A stretch of 20,364 nt of DNA. Source: a virus. The stretch spans positions 1 through 20,364 of IMG/VR virus record IMGVR_UViG_3300046002_000614; one strand, 5' to 3'. The translations under genes were made by a program, and so were the position numbers. The notes beneath the pieces are model-generated. The model did no database searches and was not told the DNA's origin. It saw nothing but the letters and a program-made list of their open reading frames with translations. Positions 2,193-17,050 of this stretch are shown here, in pieces. Within the stretch, counting starts at the first letter, position 1. Every line of letters starts with the position of its first letter.

Positions 2193-3415
2193 TGAGAGCG
2201 CCTTTCGACTTCCCCGAGCCTGAGAAGCGCTCGATAGAAGATCCGACCGTCAAGGTGTCGGCGTCCAACTTCCTCGCCTTCTTCGGTGTGCAGTCGGCCT
2301 ATGGCCCGGCGGTGACGCTGGATAACGCGCTGACGGTTCCGGCTGTGGCTGCGGCGGTGTCGTTCCTATCGGCTTCGATGGCGAACCTTCCGCTGCACGC
2401 CTACCGCGACACGGGCGATGGCTCGGAACGGATCAGGGGACCGCTTCAGCGGATCGTCAACGAGGCTCCCAACGACGAGTGGACTTCGTTTGGGGCGCGG
2501 AAGTACTTCTGGCAACAGGTGTTCACCGCCGGGCGCGGCCTGTTCTGGATCGAGCGCTCTGGCACCGGGATTGCGGGCCTGTGGCCTATGGAGGTCGCGA
2601 AGACCACCGTGGTCCGTCAGGACGGGCGCAAGGTTTACCAGTTCGGCGGTCGCACCTATCCGGCGGCTGACGTGATCGACGTTCCGTTCCTGCTGAAGCC
2701 CGACCAGTTGTCGGTTGCCAGCCCGATTATGCTGGCGGCCAAGACGATCAGCCTGGCGCTGGCGATGAACGACTACGCGGCGGGCTTCTTCGCGGGTGGC
2801 GGTGTTCCGCCCTTGGCCCTGACGGGTCCGCTACCGCAGGGCGCGGCGGCGATGGGCCGGGCGATGGATGATGTCAGCCGGGCCATCACAGCGGCGAAGG
2901 CCAGCAATAAGCCGGTCTTTCCGATGCCCCCGGGGCATGACCTGAAACAAGTCGGTTTCGACCCTGCCAAGGGTCAGATGACGGAGGCGATGCGGTTCAT
3001 CGTGGAGGAGATCGCGCGGGCGTACAGCCTGCCGCCGGTCTTCCTTCAGGATCTCACGCACGGCACGTTCTCGAACACGGAACAACAGGATTTGCACCTC
3101 ACCAAGCACCTCATCGCCCAATGGGCGAAGGCGCTGGAGGAGGAGATGAACCTGAAGCTGTTCGGCGCAAAGCGGAACGTCCGCTACGTCGAGCATTCAC
3201 TGGACGGCATGATGCGCGGCGACTTCAAGTCCCGCCTTGAAGGCCTATCCACAGCCGTAAACACGGCGCTTCTGACCCCTAACGAGGCACGGGCGCTGGA
3301 TAACCGCGAGGGCAAGCCGAACGGTGACGATCTCTACATTCAAGGCGCTACGGTGAAGCTGGGAAGCCAGGTCGCCCCGCCGTCTACTGGAGCGACTGAT
3401 GACCCTGGAGCGTGA
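2192..3415 (+). CDS. HK97-family portal protein
   Basis: A 407-residue portal that forms the dodecameric ring at the packaging vertex. The N-terminal segment LDNALTVPAVAAAVSFLSAS (about 43-62) and the following ANLPLHAYR are typical of HK97/lambda-type portals. The later segment VEEIARAYSLPPVFL, with TFSNTEQQD after it, is the usual portal core leading into the tunnel helix region. The open frame runs further upstream, but ATG at 2192 overlaps the terminase stop as ATGA and gives a normal N-terminus. Its 3' end overlaps the protease gene by 17 bases. Confidence 0.93.
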   Translation: MRAPFDFPEPEKRSIEDPTVKVSASNFLAFFGVQSAYGPAVTLDNALTVPAVAAAVSFLSASMANLPLHAYRDTGDGSERIRGPLQRIVNEAPNDEWTSFGARKYFWQQVFTAGRGLFWIERSGTGIAGLWPMEVAKTTVVRQDGRKVYQFGGRTYPAADVIDVPFLLKPDQLSVASPIMLAAKTISLALAMNDYAAGFFAGGGVPPLALTGPLPQGAAAMGRAMDDVSRAITAAKASNKPVFPMPPGHDLKQVGFDPAKGQMTEAMRFIVEEIARAYSLPPVFLQDLTHGTFSNTEQQDLHLTKHLIAQWAKALEEEMNLKLFGAKRNVRYVEHSLDGMMRGDFKSRLEGLSTAVNTALLTPNEARALDNREGKPNGDDLYIQGATVKLGSQVAPPSTGATDDPGA

Positions 3416-4001
3416 AGTGCGCGGGGGCGTTCCCGCTGAGATCAGAGCGGACGAAGGCGGCCTGCGGGTCTCTGGCTACGCCGCTGTGTTCAACGAGCCT
3501 GCCGACATCGGCGGAATGTTCAAGGAGGTCATCGCGCCGGGCGCGTTCCGTGACGCCTTGAGCCGTGATGACGTGGTCTTCCTGATCAATCACGACGGCC
3601 TGCCGCTGGCTCGCACCCGTTCGGGCACCATGACCCTGACGGAAGACAGCAAGGGCCTTCGGATGGATACCGTTCTCGACCCCGAAGACCCCGATGTGAA
3701 GTCCATTGCGGGGAAAATGAAACGCGGCGACCTCGACAAGATGAGCTTCGCTTTCCGCGCGACGAAACAGGAGTGGGACGACACGTCCGACCCGCCGACG
3801 CGGACGATCTACGAGATGAGGCTGTTCGACGTGTCCATCGTGACGCGCCCGGCCTACGACGGAACGAGCATTGCCATGCGGTCCCTTGAGGACACCCGCA
3901 AGGATCAACGCTCCAAGAACTTCAATGCGGCGGCTCATCGGCTCCGCTTGAAGGCTGACCTGGATCTTCGGACCAGAGGTAGGCTTCCCAAAGCCGGTTA
4001 A
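3399..4001 (+). CDS. HK97-family prohead protease
   Basis: A 200-residue capsid maturation protease (peptidase U35/S78 group) that removes the scaffolding-like delta domain of the capsid protein and then itself. Family signatures are SGYAAVFNEPADIGG near residues 25-39, followed by IAPGAF. The putative catalytic histidine is H65 in INHDGLPLARTRSGT, and the putative catalytic serine is S116 in DKMSFAFRA. FDVSIVTRPAYDGT (143-156) is also conserved. Length is normal for the family. It starts inside the portal gene and precedes the capsid gene, the standard order. The tail beyond residue 165 is basic and probably the self-cleaved region. Confidence 0.93.
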   Translation: MTLEREVRGGVPAEIRADEGGLRVSGYAAVFNEPADIGGMFKEVIAPGAFRDALSRDDVVFLINHDGLPLARTRSGTMTLTEDSKGLRMDTVLDPEDPDVKSIAGKMKRGDLDKMSFAFRATKQEWDDTSDPPTRTIYEMRLFDVSIVTRPAYDGTSIAMRSLEDTRKDQRSKNFNAAAHRLRLKADLDLRTRGRLPKAG

Positions 4002-6310: not shown

Positions 6311-6648
6311 TGAGGACGCAAGCCTGGTGGCCTGACACTCACCCCGGCCATGAGCTTCACACGCTCTGGGATGGGGATGAGTTCAAGGGCTGTGTGAAGG
6401 CCATTGTGAACGGCCAAGAGGCTGCGGCGCCTCAGGCCATCTATGATGCTGTTCTGCTGGAGAACCAGCTTAAGAACACCACGCTCAACCTGATCCGCGA
6501 AAACCTCCCGGCCTGGATCGACCCGGAGAGCGTCGAGTGGGACTTCGGCGAGGCTGACGGCCTGTTGTCGTTCACTATCCCGGGCGCGACGGATGGCGTT
6601 CTGGCGGTGCTTCGCGGGCTTGTTCCCGAGGGCGTGACCGTTGGCTGA
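6310..6648 (+). CDS. Hypothetical phage protein
   Basis: A 112-residue soluble acidic protein with several Trp (W6, W7, W20, W70, W79 region) and no motif I recognise. It starts with ATG overlapping the previous TGA, and its stop lies inside the start of the fibre-like gene (8 bases of overlap). Its position between two virion-type genes suggests a fibre-associated or assembly role, but that is inference only. Confidence 0.6.
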   Translation: MRTQAWWPDTHPGHELHTLWDGDEFKGCVKAIVNGQEAAAPQAIYDAVLLENQLKNTTLNLIRENLPAWIDPESVEWDFGEADGLLSFTIPGATDGVLAVLRGLVPEGVTVG

Positions 6649-8257
6649 GAGCGCGTTCGTCGGGGCGACTGACAATGCCGGCATCTCCCCGGCCTCCAGC
6701 GTCACCTACTATGGCAACTATGGAAACTCTGTAGCGGCCACGCTGCCGGCGAACACGACCGAGGCGCAGGCGTCGATTGTTCATCGCGGGTCCAACTGCA
6801 CGCTGAAGAACCTTCGCGCCCGACTGACGACCAACAGCCGCGCGGCCAACTCGACCATCACGACCCAGAAGAACGGGTCAGCCACGGCGCAAGTGGTGAC
6901 GATCACCGCTTCGACGACGGGAACGTACACCGACCTTTCCAACACCGTCTCCCTGACGGCGGGCGATACTTACAGCTACGAACTGGTTATCGGCTCCACC
7001 TCTGGCACGCTCCTGCTAAACGCCCTGACGGCGGAACTGGAAAGCGACGGGCAGTCTGTCAGCCCGCTGTCGTGCTTCGGGACGGTCTCGCTGACCACGG
7101 CCAGCGCGACCCGTTACATCGCGCTCTCGGGGCGCCTCCAGACGCTTCTTGCGACGGAAAGCGAAGCGCAGCTTAAAGCCCCGGTTGCCGGAACGTGGTC
7201 GCATCTTCGGCTGTACGTCACGGCGGCGCGGGCTACCACGACCACCATTCGCAGCCGGAAGAACAGCGCCAACGGCAACCAGCTTCTAAGCATCACGGGC
7301 ACGGGCGCCTTTGAGGACACCAGCAACAGCGACACCGTAGCTGCGGGCGACAATCTCAGCGTTTCCCTGGTGACGGGAAGCGGCGCTGACACGCTGACAT
7401 TCGTAAACGCATCTTCGACCTATACGCCAAGTTCGGCCAAGGCCGCCGTAGTCGCCAGCCAGATTATGGCGTCCACCACAGCGGCGGCGGGAGCCAACAG
7501 GTTCAACCCTGTACTGGGTCGCTTCTCGGTCAACTCGACGGAGGCCACCCTCCAGGCCCCGGCTCCGTTTGCCGGTACTGCCAGTTATCTGACCTACAGC
7601 CTTTCCGCCAACGCCTCGACGGTCACGTCCAACATCACGCTTCGGAAGGCCGGGGCGGATACGGCTGTAACCATCGCCATAACGGCGGGCGCCACCGGAC
7701 TATTCGCGGATACCAGCAACAGCGTCTCCGTCGCGGCGGGCGATCTGCTGTCGGTCAAGATCAGCGACCACGACGGCACCCTGACCACCCGGGGGCTTTC
7801 GCTCAACTATACGCAGTCGGCAACCGGGGTCACCGGCACGCTGGCCGCCACCCTTGGGGAAGTTACCTCAACCGCCGCTGGTGCAGTCGCCATCGCCGGG
7901 GCTTCAGCGGTTACGCTTGGCGCGGTCACTTCGGCAGCGGCGGGCGTTGCTTCCATCGACGGGGTGTCTTCACAGACCCTTGGCGCGGCTACGGCGACCG
8001 GGGCCGGAACTGTCGCGGTCGCAGGGGCGGCTAACGTCACCCTTGGCGCGCTTGGCCTGGTGTCGGTCGGCGGCGTCCTGATCGACGGGGCGCTGGTCAA
8101 GACCTTCGGGGCGCTGACGCTGATCGCAACCAGCGAAGGCGCGGCGCAGGCGTTCGATACGGTCAGCATCCCCGCTGACCGGAACGCGACAATCAGAAGC
8201 GACGGTTCAAGCCGGGTTGGCTCACAACAGGCGATTAGAGTTCGGAGGGTCGGATGA
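6641..8257 (+). CDS. Repeat-rich fibre-like virion protein
   Basis: A 538-residue Thr/Ser/Ala/Gly-rich protein. It contains three copies of a beta-sandwich-like domain at about 1-135, 140-262 and 268-392. Each domain has a T-I-x-x-R/Q-K-N/A segment, a short loop ending T-G-x-x-x-D-T/L-S-N, then V-x-x-A-G-D-x-x-S/Y-x-x-L/K. Residues 399-503 are five consecutive 21-residue repeats of the type G-A-x-x-x-T-L-G-A-x-T. Such repeats are common in phage fibres. The tail VSIPADRNATIRSDGSSR precedes a small adaptor-like gene. The start is TTG 6641 inside the previous gene; no ATG or GTG lies near in frame. Probable role: surface fibre or appendage for host contact. Its location before the connector gene, rather than at the tail tip, is unusual. 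Confidence 0.65.
   Translation: MAESAFVGATDNAGISPASSVTYYGNYGNSVAATLPANTTEAQASIVHRGSNCTLKNLRARLTTNSRAANSTITTQKNGSATAQVVTITASTTGTYTDLSNTVSLTAGDTYSYELVIGSTSGTLLLNALTAELESDGQSVSPLSCFGTVSLTTASATRYIALSGRLQTLLATESEAQLKAPVAGTWSHLRLYVTAARATTTTIRSRKNSANGNQLLSITGTGAFEDTSNSDTVAAGDNLSVSLVTGSGADTLTFVNASSTYTPSSAKAAVVASQIMASTTAAAGANRFNPVLGRFSVNSTEATLQAPAPFAGTASYLTYSLSANASTVTSNITLRKAGADTAVTIAITAGATGLFADTSNSVSVAAGDLLSVKISDHDGTLTTRGLSLNYTQSATGVTGTLAATLGEVTSTAAGAVAIAGASAVTLGAVTSAAAGVASIDGVSSQTLGAATATGAGTVAVAGAANVTLGALGLVSVGGVLIDGALVKTFGALTLIATSEGAAQAFDTVSIPADRNATIRSDGSSRVGSQQAIRVRRVG
7835..8149 (+). repeat. Five tandem 63-bp (21-codon) repeats in the fibre-like gene
   Basis: The encoded units begin at residues 399, 420, 441, 462 and 483, each exactly 21 residues. 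The conserved core is T-L-G-A at unit positions 6-9 (TLGE, TLGA, TLGA, TLGA, TFGA), followed by small residues. No indel breaks the phase, while the DNA copies are diverged. This points to a selected structural period rather than a recent slippage product. Confidence 0.8.
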
Positions 8258-8514
8258 GACTGATTGACCCCGCCGAAACGCGGTCCTTCACGCAAGACTG
8301 GTCTGATTGGCTCGATACCGAGACGATCTCGACCAGCTCTTGGGCGGTTACCCCCACAGCGACGACGGCAGGCGCGACGAACACCACGACGACGGCGACG
8401 GTGAAGCTGTCGGCCTGTTCGCATGGGCAAATGTACCAACTGACCAACACCATCACGACTTCGGGCGGCCAGACGGCGCAACGGTCCATCACGGTTCGGG
8501 GCATCCAGCAATGA
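8254..8514 (+). CDS. Small Ig-like or fibre-adaptor-like phage protein
   Basis: An 86-residue protein beginning RLIDPAETRSFTQDWSDWLD, then a T-I-S-T-S-S-W-A-V strand, a Thr-rich loop, V-K-L-S-A-C-S-H-G-Q-M-Y-Q-L and N-T-I-T-T-S-G-G-Q-T-A-Q-R-S. The DW...W.D opening and the strand order resemble the small proteins that accompany phage fibre genes and are often annotated as fibre-tail adaptors. I recognise this by pattern only. It overlaps the fibre-like gene by ATGA and the connector gene by ATGA, so all three should be translated together. Confidence 0.55.
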   Translation: MRLIDPAETRSFTQDWSDWLDTETISTSSWAVTPTATTAGATNTTTTATVKLSACSHGQMYQLTNTITTSGGQTAQRSITVRGIQQ

Positions 8515-9065
8515 TCCTCGTCACCGCGCCGACCGACTACCCCGTTTCGCTGGACGAGCTGAAGACGCACCTGCGGCTTGACCATTCAGACGACGACGGG
8601 GCGCTGGCTGGCTATCTGGCTGCGTCTGTCGCCTTCATTGAGCAATGGGCCGGGGTGTCCATGCTTCAGCGGACGTACAAGAGCTATCTGGACGAATGGC
8701 CGTCCGCAGTCTCTTTGCCGATGGGTCCGCTTGTCTCGGTGACGCATATCAAGACCTATGACGACGCCGACGCCGCGACGACCTGGGACACGGCGGAATA
8801 CTACGTCGATACGGTCAAGGGCCGCATCTTCCCCCGGGCGGATTACGCATTCCCGCTTCCCGAGCGTGTGGCGAACGGCATCGAGATCCAGTGGGTCTCC
8901 GGTCATGCCTCGGCGGGGGAAACCCCTGAGAACCTTCGTCACGCGATCCTGCTGACCGCTGGCCACTACTACCGCAACCGCGAGGCGGCGGGCGACACCG
9001 TGCAAACGACCATCCCCCTCGGTGTTGAGGCTTTGGTCAATCAATCGCGTTCCTGGCTCCTCTAG
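8511..9065 (+). CDS. Head-tail connector protein (HK97 gp6-like)
   Basis: A 184-residue protein expected to form the first ring below the portal. Residues 1-50 show the family pattern: PVSLDELKTHLRLDHSDDD, then helical segments with VAFIEQWAG. L-P-M-G-P-L-V-S-V-T-H-I-K-T-Y-D follows, and a late segment reads NLRHAILLTAGHYYRNRE. These fit the phage gp6-like/Phage_connect group. The open frame extends upstream, but ATG 8511 overlaps the previous stop (ATGA) and gives the normal family N-terminus. It is followed by a real gap with the second repeated hairpin. Confidence 0.85.
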   Translation: MILVTAPTDYPVSLDELKTHLRLDHSDDDGALAGYLAASVAFIEQWAGVSMLQRTYKSYLDEWPSAVSLPMGPLVSVTHIKTYDDADAATTWDTAEYYVDTVKGRIFPRADYAFPLPERVANGIEIQWVSGHASAGETPENLRHAILLTAGHYYRNREAAGDTVQTTIPLGVEALVNQSRSWLL

Positions 9066-9084
9066 CAGCGTCGGACGACGCCGC
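9065..9084 (+). repeat. Hairpin leader element, copy 2 (before the 9109 gene)
   Basis: GCAGCGTCGGACGACGCCGC differs from copy 1 by one base (C for T). The change turns a G-T wobble into a G-C pair, giving GCGTCG/CGACGC with a two-base centre, so pairing is kept or improved. The core ends 24 bases before ATG 9109, the same distance as copy 1. The following CCTCCC, GAAGGA and ACTACCC are shared with copy 1. Confidence 0.85.
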
Positions 9085-9108
9085 GCCTCCCTTAGAAGGA
9101 TACTACCC

Positions 9109-9606
9109 ATGCCCCTCGACATTGGCGTCCGCTTCGACGGCACCCTGACCTCGACCAACGATCTCGGCGTGCCCTCGTTCACGCTGACCCCGCGCGCAAC
9201 CACGAACCTGCAACAAGGGACCGCCACCTCGCAGGCCGATCTCCTGTTTGCTGACACGCGGACCATCGCCGCGTCTGGCACGGACAACCTGGACCTCACC
9301 GGCACGGCCCTGAACAACGTGTTCGGTGTCGCTCTGGCTCTGGTCAAGGTGAAGGCCCTGTATGTGAAGGCCAGCGCCGCCAATACCAACAACGTGGTGA
9401 TCGGCGCCGGCACCAACCCCTTCAGCGGCCCGCTCGGCGGCACCCTGCCGACCATCACCGTTCCGCCCGGTGGCGAGGTTCTGTTGACCGCGCCGGTCAG
9501 CGGCTGGACGGTCACCGCCGCCACGGGCGACATCCTGAAGATCGTCAACTCCGCCGGCAGCACGTCGGTTGACTATGACATCATCATCGCTGGCACGAGC
9601 GCCTAG
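9109..9606 (+). CDS. Beta-rich virion-type protein, possibly decoration
   Basis: A 165-residue protein, Thr/Ala/Gly/Asn-rich, without cysteine, membrane segment or enzyme motif. Recognisable segments are ALYVKASAANTNNVVIGAG followed by NPFSGPLGG, then PPGGEVLLTAPVSGWTVTA and GDILKIVNSAGSTSVDYDI. These resemble an uncharacterised phage beta-sandwich family found among structural genes. The open frame extends upstream, but ATG 9109 has a good GAAGGA site and follows the repeated hairpin leader. Its leader is almost the same as that of the capsid gene, so I infer a high-copy virion protein. The exact place in the particle is unknown. Confidence 0.6.
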   Translation: MPLDIGVRFDGTLTSTNDLGVPSFTLTPRATTNLQQGTATSQADLLFADTRTIAASGTDNLDLTGTALNNVFGVALALVKVKALYVKASAANTNNVVIGAGTNPFSGPLGGTLPTITVPPGGEVLLTAPVSGWTVTAATGDILKIVNSAGSTSVDYDIIIAGTSA

Positions 9607-11948
9607 TGAGCCGTTCTGGCTACGGCGCCACCTTCGCTATCAGCGACGGCGCCGGGGACTACATCGCTGTGGGCGAGGTGCGGGAGATCACTCCCCCCTC
9701 GACTTCGCGCGACGGTCCTGAGGCGACCTCTCACGGCTCTACAGAGCGGTTCCAAGAATACCTTGCGGGCCTGCGTGATGGGGGCGAGGTCAGCCTCAAG
9801 CTGAACTACACGACTGCGGGCTATGCGGCCCTGATCACGGAATGGAACCGCGAAGTCTCGTGGGACTACCTGATCACGCTTCCTGACGGGGCGACGCACA
9901 GCTTTTCCGGCTTTGTTACCGGGCTTGTCGTCACCTCGCCGGTTGAGGACGTTTACGAGATCGCGGTGGCGTTCAAGGCGACGCGGGCGGTGGACTACGA
10001 CACCGCTCCGCCACCCCCGCCGCCGCCTCCGCCCGCCATGCCGGATACGCCTTTCGCGTGGTTCTATATGTGGGAAGGGGCTGAGAGCGGGGCGTATGTT
10101 CCCGACCACCTGGCCACGCCATACACCCCCCTGCGGAACGTCTACGGCGCCGTGGAGCTTCGGTCGGACAGTTCGGCGACGAACCCGACCGTTACGCGCA
10201 ATGCTGCCGATGGTCCGCTTGGCGTCAACACCGCCGCGACGATGGTGTTCTCGGCAACGACCAGCACCTTCCAGATTGTCGGCTCAACAACCTTCGACCT
10301 CGAAAGCCTCGTCTCCTACGAGATCGAAGTCTCGATGGTCACCGTCTCAGGGACGGGCGCGAAAAACTACCGCATCGGCCAGACCGGCACAAACGGCACT
10401 CACTACACGACCGTCTCGGTTCCCGACGAAAGCAGCACCAGCTTCACCACTCCCGGCACGGCGGCCTGCACGTTCAACTTCACCTTTACCAACGACACGG
10501 CCAAGGTTGTCCAGATCCTTCCCGATACCAACGGCGACGCGGCGACACTCAAGGTTGGGTACATCCGCATCCGCAAGGCGTCCGATGCGGCCTTCGTGGC
10601 TCTGGCTTCGCAACGGTGGGGCGACGTTCTCAGCCGGGGCACGCGGACCACGGGCGGCGTCGTCATGGATGGGCTGGGCTACAATATGCTCGGCGCGGGC
10701 GGGGCGTCTGACGGCCTGATTGGTCGATACAGCACCGCGCCGCTGCAAAAGACCTTCACCAGTGGAACGACCCGCATTGCGCTTGCCAAGGTCAACGGCG
10801 GGGCGGGGACCGGAACGCCGGCCATCATCCTGGCCAACGACAGCGACGGCGGCCTGTCCGCTGCCAACTCCATCGGAACAGGCGCGCTCGGCGTCGATTT
10901 GTCGGGCCAAGAGGGTTATCTCTACGTCCAGCCTGACCACAGCGTCACCGACCACGGCGTCAACCTGATCGGCAAGGGCTACGTCGCAATCTGGCAAGTG
11001 ATCGAGGACGGCGCCCACGAGTTCGGGGTCGATAAGTACCCCCTGTACCTTCGCACCGATGCCTTGAGCTTCCCGCAGGCCTACAGTGGCTTCCGGGTCG
11101 GGTCTTACCCCGCGACGCGCCTGATCACAGGCACCAGCTTCCGAAACGACATGGAAGTGGCGGCGGCGATTATCTACGACCGGGCGCTGACGCAGGCCGA
11201 AATCTTCGAGGCGGTCGAGGCGCTCTACTACGACTTCGAGGCCGAAGGCGGCACGCTCGGAAGCCGCGAGATTGTCGGGGTGGTTGGCGACAGCAACGAC
11301 GTTCGCGCCACGGGTGATTGGACCTACCTGATCAGCGCAAACGGCTACATGAGCCCGGGCGAGAACGTCTGGCTCAATCTGCAAGCGGTCGGCGGGCGCG
11401 GCGTCTACGACGGGACGGTCGGCGCGTTCAACGTCGATATGGACCCGGGCGGCTTTGTTCCGCAGATCAACTACATCATTCCGTCGCTGGAAAACGCCGT
11501 CGCGGACGGTCACCCCGCCGCTGTCGCTATTCGCGGTTACACGAACGACGCGCCGTTCGTCGCCCTGGATCGTCAGCGGGTCTGGGATGACTATGTCGAT
11601 CTGATCTATGACCCCGTTCTGGCCACGGGCGCTCATCTCCTGCTGATGGACGTGTTGCCGTGTGCCAACCGCTTCACCGAAGCGAACAACCTATGGCTCC
11701 GCGATCAGATGGCGGCCTATGCGGCGGCGCATCCGGGGCAAGTCTGGCACTTTGCCAGCGGCAATACCGGGATGTTCGACGTTGACGACACGGTCAATGT
11801 CACGGGCGCGGGGGGCGCTACGGCAACGGGCACGGTCGATACGACCTACTACCTCAAACCTGATTACGTCCACCTGACGGCGGCGGGCGATGCCTTGCTT
11901 GCCTCGCATTACAAGACGCTGATCGAGACGTGGCGGGACGAGCGATGA
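9606..11948 (+). CDS. Tail tube-SGNH esterase fusion protein
   Basis: A 780-residue multidomain protein. Residues 1-130 are a complete tail-tube domain, with GYGATF, GSTERF, GLRDGGEV and LNYT shared with the tail tube gene at 13174. By hand alignment about 60 of 130 positions are identical. Nine prolines (135-143) form a linker. Residues about 145-330 are a beta-rich jelly-roll-like segment and 335-545 are LamG-like (closing AAAIIYDRALTQAEI). From 555 onward an SGNH hydrolase is seen: block I GDSND with nucleophile S563, block III GYTND with N647, and block V DYVH with D753 and H756. The likely role is a tail appendage that removes acyl groups from host surface glycans. The GTG start overlaps the previous TAG and has a poor ribosome site, suggesting low expression. 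Confidence 0.85.
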   Translation: MSRSGYGATFAISDGAGDYIAVGEVREITPPSTSRDGPEATSHGSTERFQEYLAGLRDGGEVSLKLNYTTAGYAALITEWNREVSWDYLITLPDGATHSFSGFVTGLVVTSPVEDVYEIAVAFKATRAVDYDTAPPPPPPPPPAMPDTPFAWFYMWEGAESGAYVPDHLATPYTPLRNVYGAVELRSDSSATNPTVTRNAADGPLGVNTAATMVFSATTSTFQIVGSTTFDLESLVSYEIEVSMVTVSGTGAKNYRIGQTGTNGTHYTTVSVPDESSTSFTTPGTAACTFNFTFTNDTAKVVQILPDTNGDAATLKVGYIRIRKASDAAFVALASQRWGDVLSRGTRTTGGVVMDGLGYNMLGAGGASDGLIGRYSTAPLQKTFTSGTTRIALAKVNGGAGTGTPAIILANDSDGGLSAANSIGTGALGVDLSGQEGYLYVQPDHSVTDHGVNLIGKGYVAIWQVIEDGAHEFGVDKYPLYLRTDALSFPQAYSGFRVGSYPATRLITGTSFRNDMEVAAAIIYDRALTQAEIFEAVEALYYDFEAEGGTLGSREIVGVVGDSNDVRATGDWTYLISANGYMSPGENVWLNLQAVGGRGVYDGTVGAFNVDMDPGGFVPQINYIIPSLENAVADGHPAAVAIRGYTNDAPFVALDRQRVWDDYVDLIYDPVLATGAHLLLMDVLPCANRFTEANNLWLRDQMAAYAAAHPGQVWHFASGNTGMFDVDDTVNVTGAGGATATGTVDTTYYLKPDYVHLTAAGDALLASHYKTLIETWRDER

Positions 11949-12289
11949 ACGCTGGCAATCTCAACCGCCGCCTGATCCTTCGGCCCGCCACCTTCACCAC
12001 CGACGCCATGAACGAGCGCGTGGCGACCTATCCTGACGGCGTGACGGTCTGGGCTGAAAAGCTGGACGTTTCGGACGGGGAGCGGGTCACGGCGGCTCAA
12101 GTGGGGGCGACCTACACCGCCCGGTTCCGGCTCCGCTACTCTGCCCAAGTGGCGGCTTTGACCCCGCTGGATCGGGTCTATCTGAAGCCGCTCAAGTACG
12201 GTGAGACGGGACGAGAATACGAGGTCAACACCGTGAAGGACGTTGGCGACGACGGCCTCGAAATCACCGCAACGGCCCGCACGGAATGA
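11945..12289 (+). CDS. Head closure / head-tail joining protein
   Basis: A 114-residue protein of the SPP1 gp16/HK97 head-tail joining type, which closes the connector after packaging. The N-terminus NAGNLNRRLILRPATFTTD, then VTVWAEKLDVSDGER and the closing beta pattern around YEVNTVKDVG, follow the family. The mid-protein segment YTARFRLRYSAQV is the usual strand pair. ATG 11945 overlaps the preceding TGA (ATGA); a GTG five codons upstream is less likely. The neighbours (connector upstream, gp10-like downstream) fit, although the fusion gene and the 9109 gene are inserted between the connector and this gene. Confidence 0.85.
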   Translation: MNAGNLNRRLILRPATFTTDAMNERVATYPDGVTVWAEKLDVSDGERVTAAQVGATYTARFRLRYSAQVAALTPLDRVYLKPLKYGETGREYEVNTVKDVGDDGLEITATARTE

Positions 12290-13173: not shown

Positions 13174-13596
13174 ATGGCCACGACTGCACGCCTCGGCTAC
13201 GGGGCGACCTTCTCCATCGGTGACGGCGGCGGAACCGAAGTCTTCACCGCCCTGTCGGAAGTCATCGAGGTCGGCCCCCCGTCGCTCTCGCGCGCTTCCG
13301 TCGATGCGACCCACCACGGGTCTACCGAGCGCTATCAGGACTTCATCCCCGGCCTGCGTGATGGCGGCGAAGTTCCGCTGATGCTGAATTACACGAACGC
13401 GGCCTATGTCACGCTCCTGGCCAAGTACAACACCGACACGGTGACCAACTACCGCGTCACCGGCCCGAACGGCGCCATCTGGCAGTTCGCCGGCTTCCTG
13501 ACCGCTCTGGAAGGCCAGATCCCCATCGACGACAAGATGGCGATCAGCTGCACGTTCAAGGTCAGCGGCAAGCCCGCCTATACGGCTGGTAGCTAA
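13174..13596 (+). CDS. Major tail tube protein
   Basis: A 140-residue protein with the size and beta pattern of small siphophage/GTA tail tube proteins. The motifs LGYGATFSIGDG, HHGSTERYQDFIPGLRDGGE and MLNYTNAAY are followed by a Q-F-A-G-F-L-T segment and the strand ISCTFKVSGKPAY. It is followed directly by the tail assembly chaperone genes, the standard order. The ATG has AACGGAG upstream, and a real gap with the hairpin leader precedes it, as expected for an abundant product. Its whole length is similar to the N-terminal domain of the 9606 fusion protein. Confidence 0.9.
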   Translation: MATTARLGYGATFSIGDGGGTEVFTALSEVIEVGPPSLSRASVDATHHGSTERYQDFIPGLRDGGEVPLMLNYTNAAYVTLLAKYNTDTVTNYRVTGPNGAIWQFAGFLTALEGQIPIDDKMAISCTFKVSGKPAYTAGS

Positions 13597-14662: not shown

Positions 14663-17050
14663 GTGCAATCAGTAATCGGCGCGCTCCGGGTGGTCCTGGG
14701 GGCGGACACCGTCGCCTTCGAAAAAGGGCTGGACGGGGCACAGCGGAAGCTCAACCGCTTCGGCAAGGATATGCAACGCATCTCCAGCCGCATGACCGGG
14801 CTGGGGGCTGCGCTGACGGTCGGCCTGACCGCTCCGCTGGCTGCTGTCGGCGTCAAGATGACCCAGATGGCCATCGACGCGGAAGAGATGAAGTCGGCCT
14901 TCAAGGTCTCCTTTGGAACGATGGCGAAGGACGTTGAGGGCTGGGCGGTCAAGACCGGGGACGCGCTAGGCCGTTCCACCGAGGAGATGCAACAGGGCGC
15001 GCTCACCATGCACGGTCTGTTCAAGGCGGGCGGTCCTGCCACGGCGCAGACAAAGGCGCTGGCGCAACAGTTTGCCGTTCTCGCGCAAGACCTCTCCAGC
15101 TTTCACAATGTGGACCCCACGGACGCGCTGGCCGCCCTGAAGTCGGGCCTGTCTGGCGAAGCCGAACCCCTGCGCCGCTTCAACGTCTACCTCAACGAAA
15201 ACGCCGTCCGCTTGCAGGCTGTCCAGATGGGCCTCGGCAAGATGAAGGGCGAACTTACTGAGACGGCAAAGATCCAGGCGCGGGCCGCCCTGATCATGGC
15301 CGGCACCAGTGAGGCGCAGGGCGACGTTGCCCGAACCGCCGACAGCGCGGCAAACCAGATCAGGCGCTCCAAGGCGCAATGGCAAGAGCTGGCTGTCGTC
15401 ATCGGCTCCAAGATCATTCCGCTGCTTACCCCCGTCGTGAAGGCGCTGGGCGATATGCTGGAGGGCTTCGGCAAGCTCAATCCGGTTGTGCAGGGCTCCA
15501 TCCTTGCGTTCGGCGCCATCGCCTTGACCATCGGCCCGGTGCTGATCGGTATCGGCTCCCTGATCGGGGCGGTCGGCACGATCACGACGGCCCTCGGCGC
15601 TGCTACGGGTGCAGCGGCGACCTTCGGCGCGGCGCTCGCTGCCTTCATGGGCGTCGCGGCGGCTGTTGTGGTCACCGTCGCAGCCCTGACGGCAGGTATC
15701 GGCCTGTTGATGTACGCTCAATCGGACGCGGCCATCAAAGCGGACGCCAACAAGCGCGCCCATGAGCGGCTTGATCCGATCCTCAACACCGTCCGCGACA
15801 GCATGGCCAAGGCCGCAGCCGCGACGGGTGAGCTTCGCAAGTCCCACCTCGAGGCGGCGGATGCTGCGTTCATCCGGGGCGAGGCCGAACTCGAGGCCGC
15901 CCGGAAGACCCTGGCCGCCGCCCGCGCCAGCCTTGCCGCCGCCAAGCGGACGGACGGGAACCTTGGCCTTCAGGCCATGACCGGCGGTATGCCCGGTTAC
16001 AACACCGGCATGGCCGAGCTTGGCCAGAAGCGGGCGGAAGCCGCTCTGAAGGCCGCTGAAGACGCCCTGATCAAAGAGGGCCTCGGCAAGCGCCGCAGCC
16101 ACAAGGGATATGGCACCACCTTCCATGTCGTGAAGCCGTCCGACGCCTTCCGTGAAGCTGACGCAATCCAATCGGTCGCCACGGCTGTAAGGGACACCGG
16201 AACCGCAGCCGGCGGCGCGAAGAAGCCGACGCGGGACTTCGCTGAGGAACTGGCGCGGCTGGACGAAAGCCTCCTGACCCCGGAGCAGCAAAGCAGCCAG
16301 TCGCGCGTCGATGAGCTGAAGCTGCTGGATGACGCGCTTGAGGCCGGCGCGATCAACCTGGAGGCCTATTTTACCAAGGCTTTCGCCCTGCGGGACAAGT
16401 GGAACCGCGAGGACTTCAAGGCGATCACTGCGACCGATCCGGGGCAACTCAATTCCTCGGTTCCCGACATCCGCGTCTTCGGCGGTCAGGTGATGAGCGA
16501 GGAGCAGGTGGCGAGCCTGCAAAACCAGATGACCCACGCTTTCAGGGGCGCGTTCGACGCTCTCCGGGCGGGCGGGGCCAAGGGGCTTTTCGAGTACCTG
16601 GCCGATAGCTTCGCCAACCGGCTGCTGGACCGCCTGTCGGAAGACCTCACCGCGATCTTCTCCAAGCTGCTTTCCCAGATGTCCACCGTGTCGAACGACA
16701 ACGGCAGCGGCTGGGGCGCGATTGTCGGGGCCATCGGCAACTGGCTGGGCGGCTCTGCGGGTTTCGCGACCGGCGGCTCTTTCACGGTCGGCGGATCGGG
16801 TAGGGCCGATAGCAAGTACGTCGGGATGCGCCTCTCCCCCGGGGAAATGGTCGATATCCGGAAGCCGGGTCAGACCAACGACAACGGCGGCGGGGTGTCG
16901 GTCCACGTCAGCAAGTCGCCCTATTTCGACGTTCACGTGGAACGCATTGCGGCCAGCACCGCCGCGCCGATGGCCTCAGCCGCCTACACCCGCGCTGTCG
17001 CTGACGCGCCCCGCAATATGCAACGGCAATCGCGGAGCCGCCTCGGATGA
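14663..17050 (+). CDS. Tail tape measure protein
   Basis: A 795-residue protein that sets tail length and is ejected at infection. The GTG start at 14663 has AAAGGAG seven bases upstream. Residues 15-45 and 65-130 are amphipathic helix. Residues 275-351 form a long hydrophobic, Ala/Gly-rich segment with several possible membrane spans. Residues 360-480 are Ala/Lys/Glu-rich coiled coil. The C-terminus has AFRGAFDALRAGGAKGLFEYL (from about 627) and GGSFTVGGSGRADSKYVG near 702, the usual end of lambda/GTA-type tape measures. By the rule of about 0.15 nm per residue the tail would be near 120 nm long. It overlaps the next gene by ATGA. Confidence 0.93.
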   Translation: MQSVIGALRVVLGADTVAFEKGLDGAQRKLNRFGKDMQRISSRMTGLGAALTVGLTAPLAAVGVKMTQMAIDAEEMKSAFKVSFGTMAKDVEGWAVKTGDALGRSTEEMQQGALTMHGLFKAGGPATAQTKALAQQFAVLAQDLSSFHNVDPTDALAALKSGLSGEAEPLRRFNVYLNENAVRLQAVQMGLGKMKGELTETAKIQARAALIMAGTSEAQGDVARTADSAANQIRRSKAQWQELAVVIGSKIIPLLTPVVKALGDMLEGFGKLNPVVQGSILAFGAIALTIGPVLIGIGSLIGAVGTITTALGAATGAAATFGAALAAFMGVAAAVVVTVAALTAGIGLLMYAQSDAAIKADANKRAHERLDPILNTVRDSMAKAAAATGELRKSHLEAADAAFIRGEAELEAARKTLAAARASLAAAKRTDGNLGLQAMTGGMPGYNTGMAELGQKRAEAALKAAEDALIKEGLGKRRSHKGYGTTFHVVKPSDAFREADAIQSVATAVRDTGTAAGGAKKPTRDFAEELARLDESLLTPEQQSSQSRVDELKLLDDALEAGAINLEAYFTKAFALRDKWNREDFKAITATDPGQLNSSVPDIRVFGGQVMSEEQVASLQNQMTHAFRGAFDALRAGGAKGLFEYLADSFANRLLDRLSEDLTAIFSKLLSQMSTVSNDNGSGWGAIVGAIGNWLGGSAGFATGGSFTVGGSGRADSKYVGMRLSPGEMVDIRKPGQTNDNGGGVSVHVSKSPYFDVHVERIAASTAAPMASAAYTRAVADAPRNMQRQSRSRLG

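Follow-up and report, generated by a model that had tools for sequence, protein, structure and literature searches.

Why would a siphophage that has an ordinary tail tube gene carry a second tube domain, joined to a long C-terminal cargo and placed amid its head-tail connector genes? The window, that is, the whole 20,364-base IMG/VR viral record analysed here, is a siphophage structural operon according to profile and PHROG searches, with genes for terminase, portal, protease, capsid, connectors, tail terminator, tube, a chaperone-like product, tape measure, distal tail protein and tail tip. In this operon the ordinary tube gene keeps its usual position behind the tail terminator, and the fusion gene lies upstream, between connector and head-closure genes. 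Among annotated terminases, the nearest come from one faecal phage, one Stenotrophomonas phage and phages of Rhizobium and Paracoccus, a mixture from which an alphaproteobacterial host can only be guessed. The head-connector region also encodes a repetitive 538-aa protein without a family (6641–8257) and, directly after it, a small protein (8254–8514) matching the Gp77 fibre-tail adaptor domain (PF23148, E=1e-18). The features of the locus and its surroundings are:

9052–9606, + strand: upstream gene matching phrog_22694, function unknown; its stop overlaps the GTG start of the fusion frame.
9606–11948, + strand: predicted tube-anchored cargo protein, 780 aa; open frame, identical in contigs L003, L004 and L005.
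9606–10001, + strand: tail-tube domain (the anchor), residues 1–132; PF16461 E=4.2e-08, model resembling lambda gpV; from 9628 on, 98–99% identical in DNA to the L006 anchor.
10008–10034, + strand: nine-proline linker, residues 135–143; the cargo swap starts directly after it.
10035–11258, + strand: middle region, residues 144–551 (~410 residues), no family recognised.
11259–11945, + strand: SGNH-like domain, residues 552–780 (229 residues), by motif order and spacing and by resemblance to the SGNH domains of L048 and L176.
11945–12289, + strand: head closure gene (Phage_HCP), the ATG of which overlaps the fusion stop; marks where the segment that is exchanged or lost ends on the right.
13174–13596, + strand: ordinary tail tube gene, 140 aa; PF16461 E=1.5e-15, paralogue of the anchor.
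17047: distal tail protein (Dit), phrog_1302.

The fusion is not an assembly error, because it occurs in three other contigs besides the window, base-for-base identical in L003 and L004 and, from residue 152 on, in L005; a sister fusion is present in two more (L006 and L007). The frame is also tightly embedded, with a GTG start overlapping the preceding stop and its own stop overlapped by the ATG of the following gene.

The N-terminal part is a lambda-type tail-tube domain. Residues 10–120 match PF16461 (Phage_TTP_12; 33.6 bits compared with a curated cut-off of 26.1, E=4.2e-08), residues 6–138 match the phrog_158 major tail protein (E=2.7e-14), and the anchor is 48% identical over 127 residues (E=4e-37) to the phage's own tube protein encoded at 13174. 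An AlphaFold2 model of residues 1–132, built from an alignment of 70 homologues (pLDDT 77), has the topology of tube proteins, with a strand, a long hinge loop, a helix and a beta-sandwich, and matches lambda gpV and other tubes with Foldseek E of about 9e-9 and Z of 12–14. The best matches among solved structures are the YDC107 (Z 14.0) and lambda gpV tubes (Z about 12.5, rmsd about 4.6 over 129 residues); tubes of other phage tails, of gene transfer agents (GTAs) and of Hcp come next. Both profile and model thus bear out the first-pass annotation, made from sequence without database searches, which had placed a complete tube domain at residues 1–130. The anchor retains the near-invariant tube residues T41 and S45 and the GLRDGGE stretch of the hinge loop; just before the linker, the near-invariant G of its C-terminal SGKP motif is gone. 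Given this loss and the smaller share of conserved tube positions kept (59% in the fused anchor versus 70% in the main tube), the fused anchor may polymerise abnormally.

Two conventional roles for the fusion product were ruled out: that of main tube protein, by the separate gene at 13174, and that of distal tail protein, by the phrog_1302 Dit at 17047. Since the phage has an ordinary tube gene of its own, the fusion product is best read as a paralogous minor subunit. A second case of a tube paralogue bearing an extra module, independent of this one, is apparent in the sequence of L078, an unrelated phage with two tube genes (L078:3104-4396 and L078:1881-2366), one of which has about 280 residues of propeller-like repeats N-terminal to the tube domain. 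Other tube genes (L082:1303-2160 and L119:6983-7675) have an Ig-like C-terminal extension of about 90 residues, and in L082 an HNH-like gene (2880-3737) lies between the tube and tape-measure genes.

Behind the anchor, the run of nine prolines is present as first described. The middle region, previously described as two beta-rich regions, belongs to no recognised family in Pfam and NCBIfam profile searches; it gave weak matches only (phrog_4390, E=0.006), and a LamG assignment was unsupported by a shuffling test. The region is possibly lectin-like.

The C-terminal domain had been annotated as an intact SGNH hydrolase, and the ordering of its motifs fits that description. Four SGNH blocks occur in order, VGDSND (S563), NLQAVGG (G596), GYTND (N647) and DYVHL (D753, H756), with S563, N647, D753 and H756 exactly where they had been reported; spacing is typical, with G596 at S+33, but for additional residues that separate block II from block III. 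Scored by blocks with a model trained on TesA-like enzymes, the domain reaches 8.5, moderately above the average of 2000 shuffles (mean -10, s.d. 6.9, maximum 14.1). In profile searches, which recognise the tube part of the protein, the SGNH part was not detected by Pfam or NCBIfam (including PF13472 and PF03629), and it was likewise missed by a PDB sequence search, a custom SGNH HMM and hhalign; a single-sequence model of the full 780-aa chain was unusable (pLDDT 32).

In L048, a phage with a related tube, a gene was chosen for comparison in which Pfam identifies an arabinofuranosidase-like region plus Lipase_GDSL_2 (PF13472), and the C-terminal part of the SGNH-like domain resembles the GDSL domain of its product (TTYYLKPDYVHLTAAGDALL versus LSYFL-PDGIHLTAAGYALV). 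The shuffling p is about 6e-4 for this comparison and about 2e-4 for that with an SGNH protein of L176, both values being optimistic because the partners were picked by motif. Long frames of related composition occur in L168 (L168:1714-4476), L169 (L169:1714-4476) and L170 (L170:1663-4476), where two SGNH-type domains flank an arabinofuranosidase-like lectin region; of these two domains, the L048 and L171 counterparts possess the second only, and no similarity was found between the first SGNH domain of L168/L170 and that of the fusion. From block order and these resemblances, we consider the C-terminal domain probably SGNH, and the motif suggests esterase activity, which would act on acylated surface polysaccharide.

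Sister phages present three states of this one locus: the window's cargo, another cargo, or none. In L006 and L007, the backbone is 96–100% identical to that of the window on both sides, and the anchor shares 98–99% DNA identity, but nothing is alike after the prolines. The last alignable base is 10037 and alignment resumes at 11945; the anchor is kept at 94% of residues between alleles while the cargo differs. The sister allele is an intact frame of 558 codons in which 415 different residues match the tail-fibre family phrog_4201 (E=5.5e-10). This second cargo begins with a GQSDSLGQ motif, which we take to be reminiscent of another SGNH branch, and is without a clear catalytic acid ahead of its HHHPS motif. 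It is followed by an extra gene of 344 residues (L007:2865-3899) that occurs solely with the second cargo and is perhaps its partner or chaperone; this gene matches phrog_28344 (unknown function, E=2.5e-11), and L011 covers the right end of the same state. The upstream phrog_22694 gene is about 70–80% identical between the window and L006, and the divergence (67–81% identity) covers 8928 to 9606, from the final part of the connector gene through all of phrog_22694, although nearly identical sequence lies on either side. The two may have been exchanged along with the cargo.

The third state is that of L012, which is 95–97% identical on both flanks and has no fusion gene. Its scar (L012:1096-1163) consists of the upstream stop, a short strong hairpin (GGGTGGGGCGGGCC...GGCCCGCCACCCCC), a remnant of the fusion-gene 3' end and the ATG of the next gene. 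The remnant aligns with the last bases of the fusion gene with a local score of 36, compared with a maximum of 29 in 2000 shuffles, and the simplest reading is that L012 lost a gene of the window's type. Absence of the gene, with a 3' scar left behind, indicates that it is dispensable. L007, L010, L011 and L012 all retain an intact ordinary tube gene. Because the cargo is replaced in some sister phages and the gene lost in another, these sequences identify the fusion gene as a decoration that is optional and exchangeable and that accompanies an intact tube gene.

Beyond these relatives, the arrangement is rare. A long C-terminal cargo on a tube gene was seen in this family alone among about 130 loci, a figure that makes the rarity approximate because the tube loci are a sample, including the best 80 of 337 candidates in one search. 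Cargo homologues were not found in annotated phages, plasmids, a GTDB contig scan or viral contigs beyond the same phage. In 385 alphaproteobacterial genomes, the cargo gave three marginal matches, the best of them not SGNH-like, and PF16461 gave two weak matches (frames of 147 and 214 aa) with no fusion. A tube-esterase arrangement had been flagged at the outset as unfamiliar, and we found no published account of a tube plus SGNH-like combination in a literature search conducted largely outside subscription journals.

We propose that the fusion product functions in the tail as an optional minor protein. The N-terminal domain, a duplicate of the tube subunit, would act as a plug built into some of the rings together with the ordinary tube protein (13174); the proline run would be a stiff spacer keeping the cargo away from the shaft; and this cargo, comprising the middle region and the SGNH-like domain, would contact host envelope polysaccharide and probably strip ester groups at adsorption. 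Cargo would be exchanged by recombination at the boundary between anchor and prolines, as in tail-fibre genes, with the anchor held constant. Presence in virions, position in the tail, catalysis and substrate are what we infer from the genes. The account is supported by the assignment of the tube domain by profile, paralogue and model, by the distinct main tube and Dit genes in the operon, and by the lectin-like plus SGNH protein that the related phage L048 encodes beside its tube gene. Counting against it are an SGNH domain with no profile match, a diverged anchor that has lost SGKP, and a connector-region location that would also suit the neck. On balance, we hold the account of an optional tube-plug subunit displaying an exchangeable, enzyme-like cargo with moderate confidence. 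Tail length follows a rule of 1.5 angstrom per tape-measure residue. The 795-residue tape measure is thus expected to give a tail near 120 nm with some 170 tube subunits, and the copy number of the fusion could accordingly range from one ring to many.

The first-pass interpretation of an esterase carried on the tail shaft therefore stands in part: the join of tube and SGNH-like domains holds; it had overlooked the separate tube gene, the cargo swap and the loss in a relative.

That some of the tube subunits can display extra domains along a tail is already known from SPP1 gp17.1* and MTP-TpeX. In SPP1, plain gp17.1 and extended gp17.1* are mixed 3:1 and the extension is dispensable (PMC8718954); in the lactococcal phage PhiC0139, a mixed MTP/MTP-TpeX tail was shown by immunogold (PMC4759559), and the TpeX cargo of 936 phages is carbohydrate-binding (PMC6669499). 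As in the 936 group, where some tube subunits bear a C-terminal host-interaction module (PMC4759559, PMC6669499), the extension is optional, varies among close relatives and is encoded near the tube gene. The 936-group form, however, has a carbohydrate-binding module and arises from the one tube gene by +1 frameshift (PMC4759559, PMC6669499), whereas here an uninterrupted, separate paralogous gene, with an SGNH-like domain behind its proline run, lies upstream of the main tube gene. SPP1 gp17.1* and lambda gpV likewise combine a tube domain with an outward C-terminal addition, but these additions are single small Ig-like domains with no catalytic motif, encoded in the same gene as the tube (PMC8718954). 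Type VI secretion Hcp-ET proteins join a tube-fold protein to a C-terminal enzyme, including a phospholipase (Tle1), but are injected antibacterial toxins with immunity partners and have no phage tail (PMC6099711); no such partner is seen here. The lectin-like plus SGNH proteins of L048 and L176 share a region preceding a C-terminal SGNH domain, and that of L048 adjoins the tube gene, but they are separate genes without a tube domain. By analogy, the fusion may work like TpeX without being of the frameshift-extended kind; most likely it functions as MTP-TpeX or SPP1 gp17.1* does, but with a cargo that is enzyme-like and with a paralogous gene taking the place of the frameshift. What is new here is the enzyme-like cargo, the separate gene and the exchangeability.

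Three other readings deserve consideration. The tube domain could place the protein at one tail end only, in a neck collar or tip ring of six or twelve copies, as its gene lies between connector and head-closure genes and its anchor, besides diverging from the main tube, no longer has the SGKP motif at its C-terminus. A comparable case is that of lactococcal phages, whose neck passage structures can bear carbohydrate-esterase-like modules (PMC6669499). However, by sequence the anchor lies nearer to the tube protein (48%) than to any family of terminators, connectors or distal tail proteins, each of which has a separate gene, and gene order says little about location because the plain tube of L078 occupies this same gene position; we regard placement at an end as unlikely. 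Slightly less doubtful, though still rather improbable, is that the C-terminal domain, whether SGNH-derived or of another fold, is a non-catalytic binding module and the protein merely adheres to the host. Profiles do not recognise an enzyme, the sister cargo has no clear catalytic acid before HHHPS, and known tube-borne cargo binds carbohydrate (PMC6669499), but the four blocks keep Ser, Gly, Asn, Asp and His intact and ordered, and the end of the domain resembles a GDSL domain that Pfam does recognise (L048).

The gene could also be a functionless product of recombination, in which a duplicated tube fragment was joined by chance to a fibre fragment. Its absence from L012 would fit, as would its rarity, since the tubes of about 130 loci include no second case of a long C-terminal cargo. 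Against this, the frame runs uninterrupted through 780 codons in several contigs and through 558 in the sister allele, the anchor is preserved at 94% of residues despite cargo exchange, and start and stop overlap adjoining structural genes. A functionless product seems very improbable.

Most of the enzymes and receptor-binding modules known in siphophages belong to tip fibres, baseplates and necks. If the optional tube-plug subunit is real, the tail shaft too could attack the host surface, and variation could accumulate behind a constant tube anchor. More tentatively, the duplicated tube gene could be a dedicated dock, through which catalytic adhesins are plugged into the shaft and swapped between phages at the anchor, in hosts that are probably alphaproteobacterial. 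With sister phages carrying this cargo, another or none, the locus is a natural experiment.
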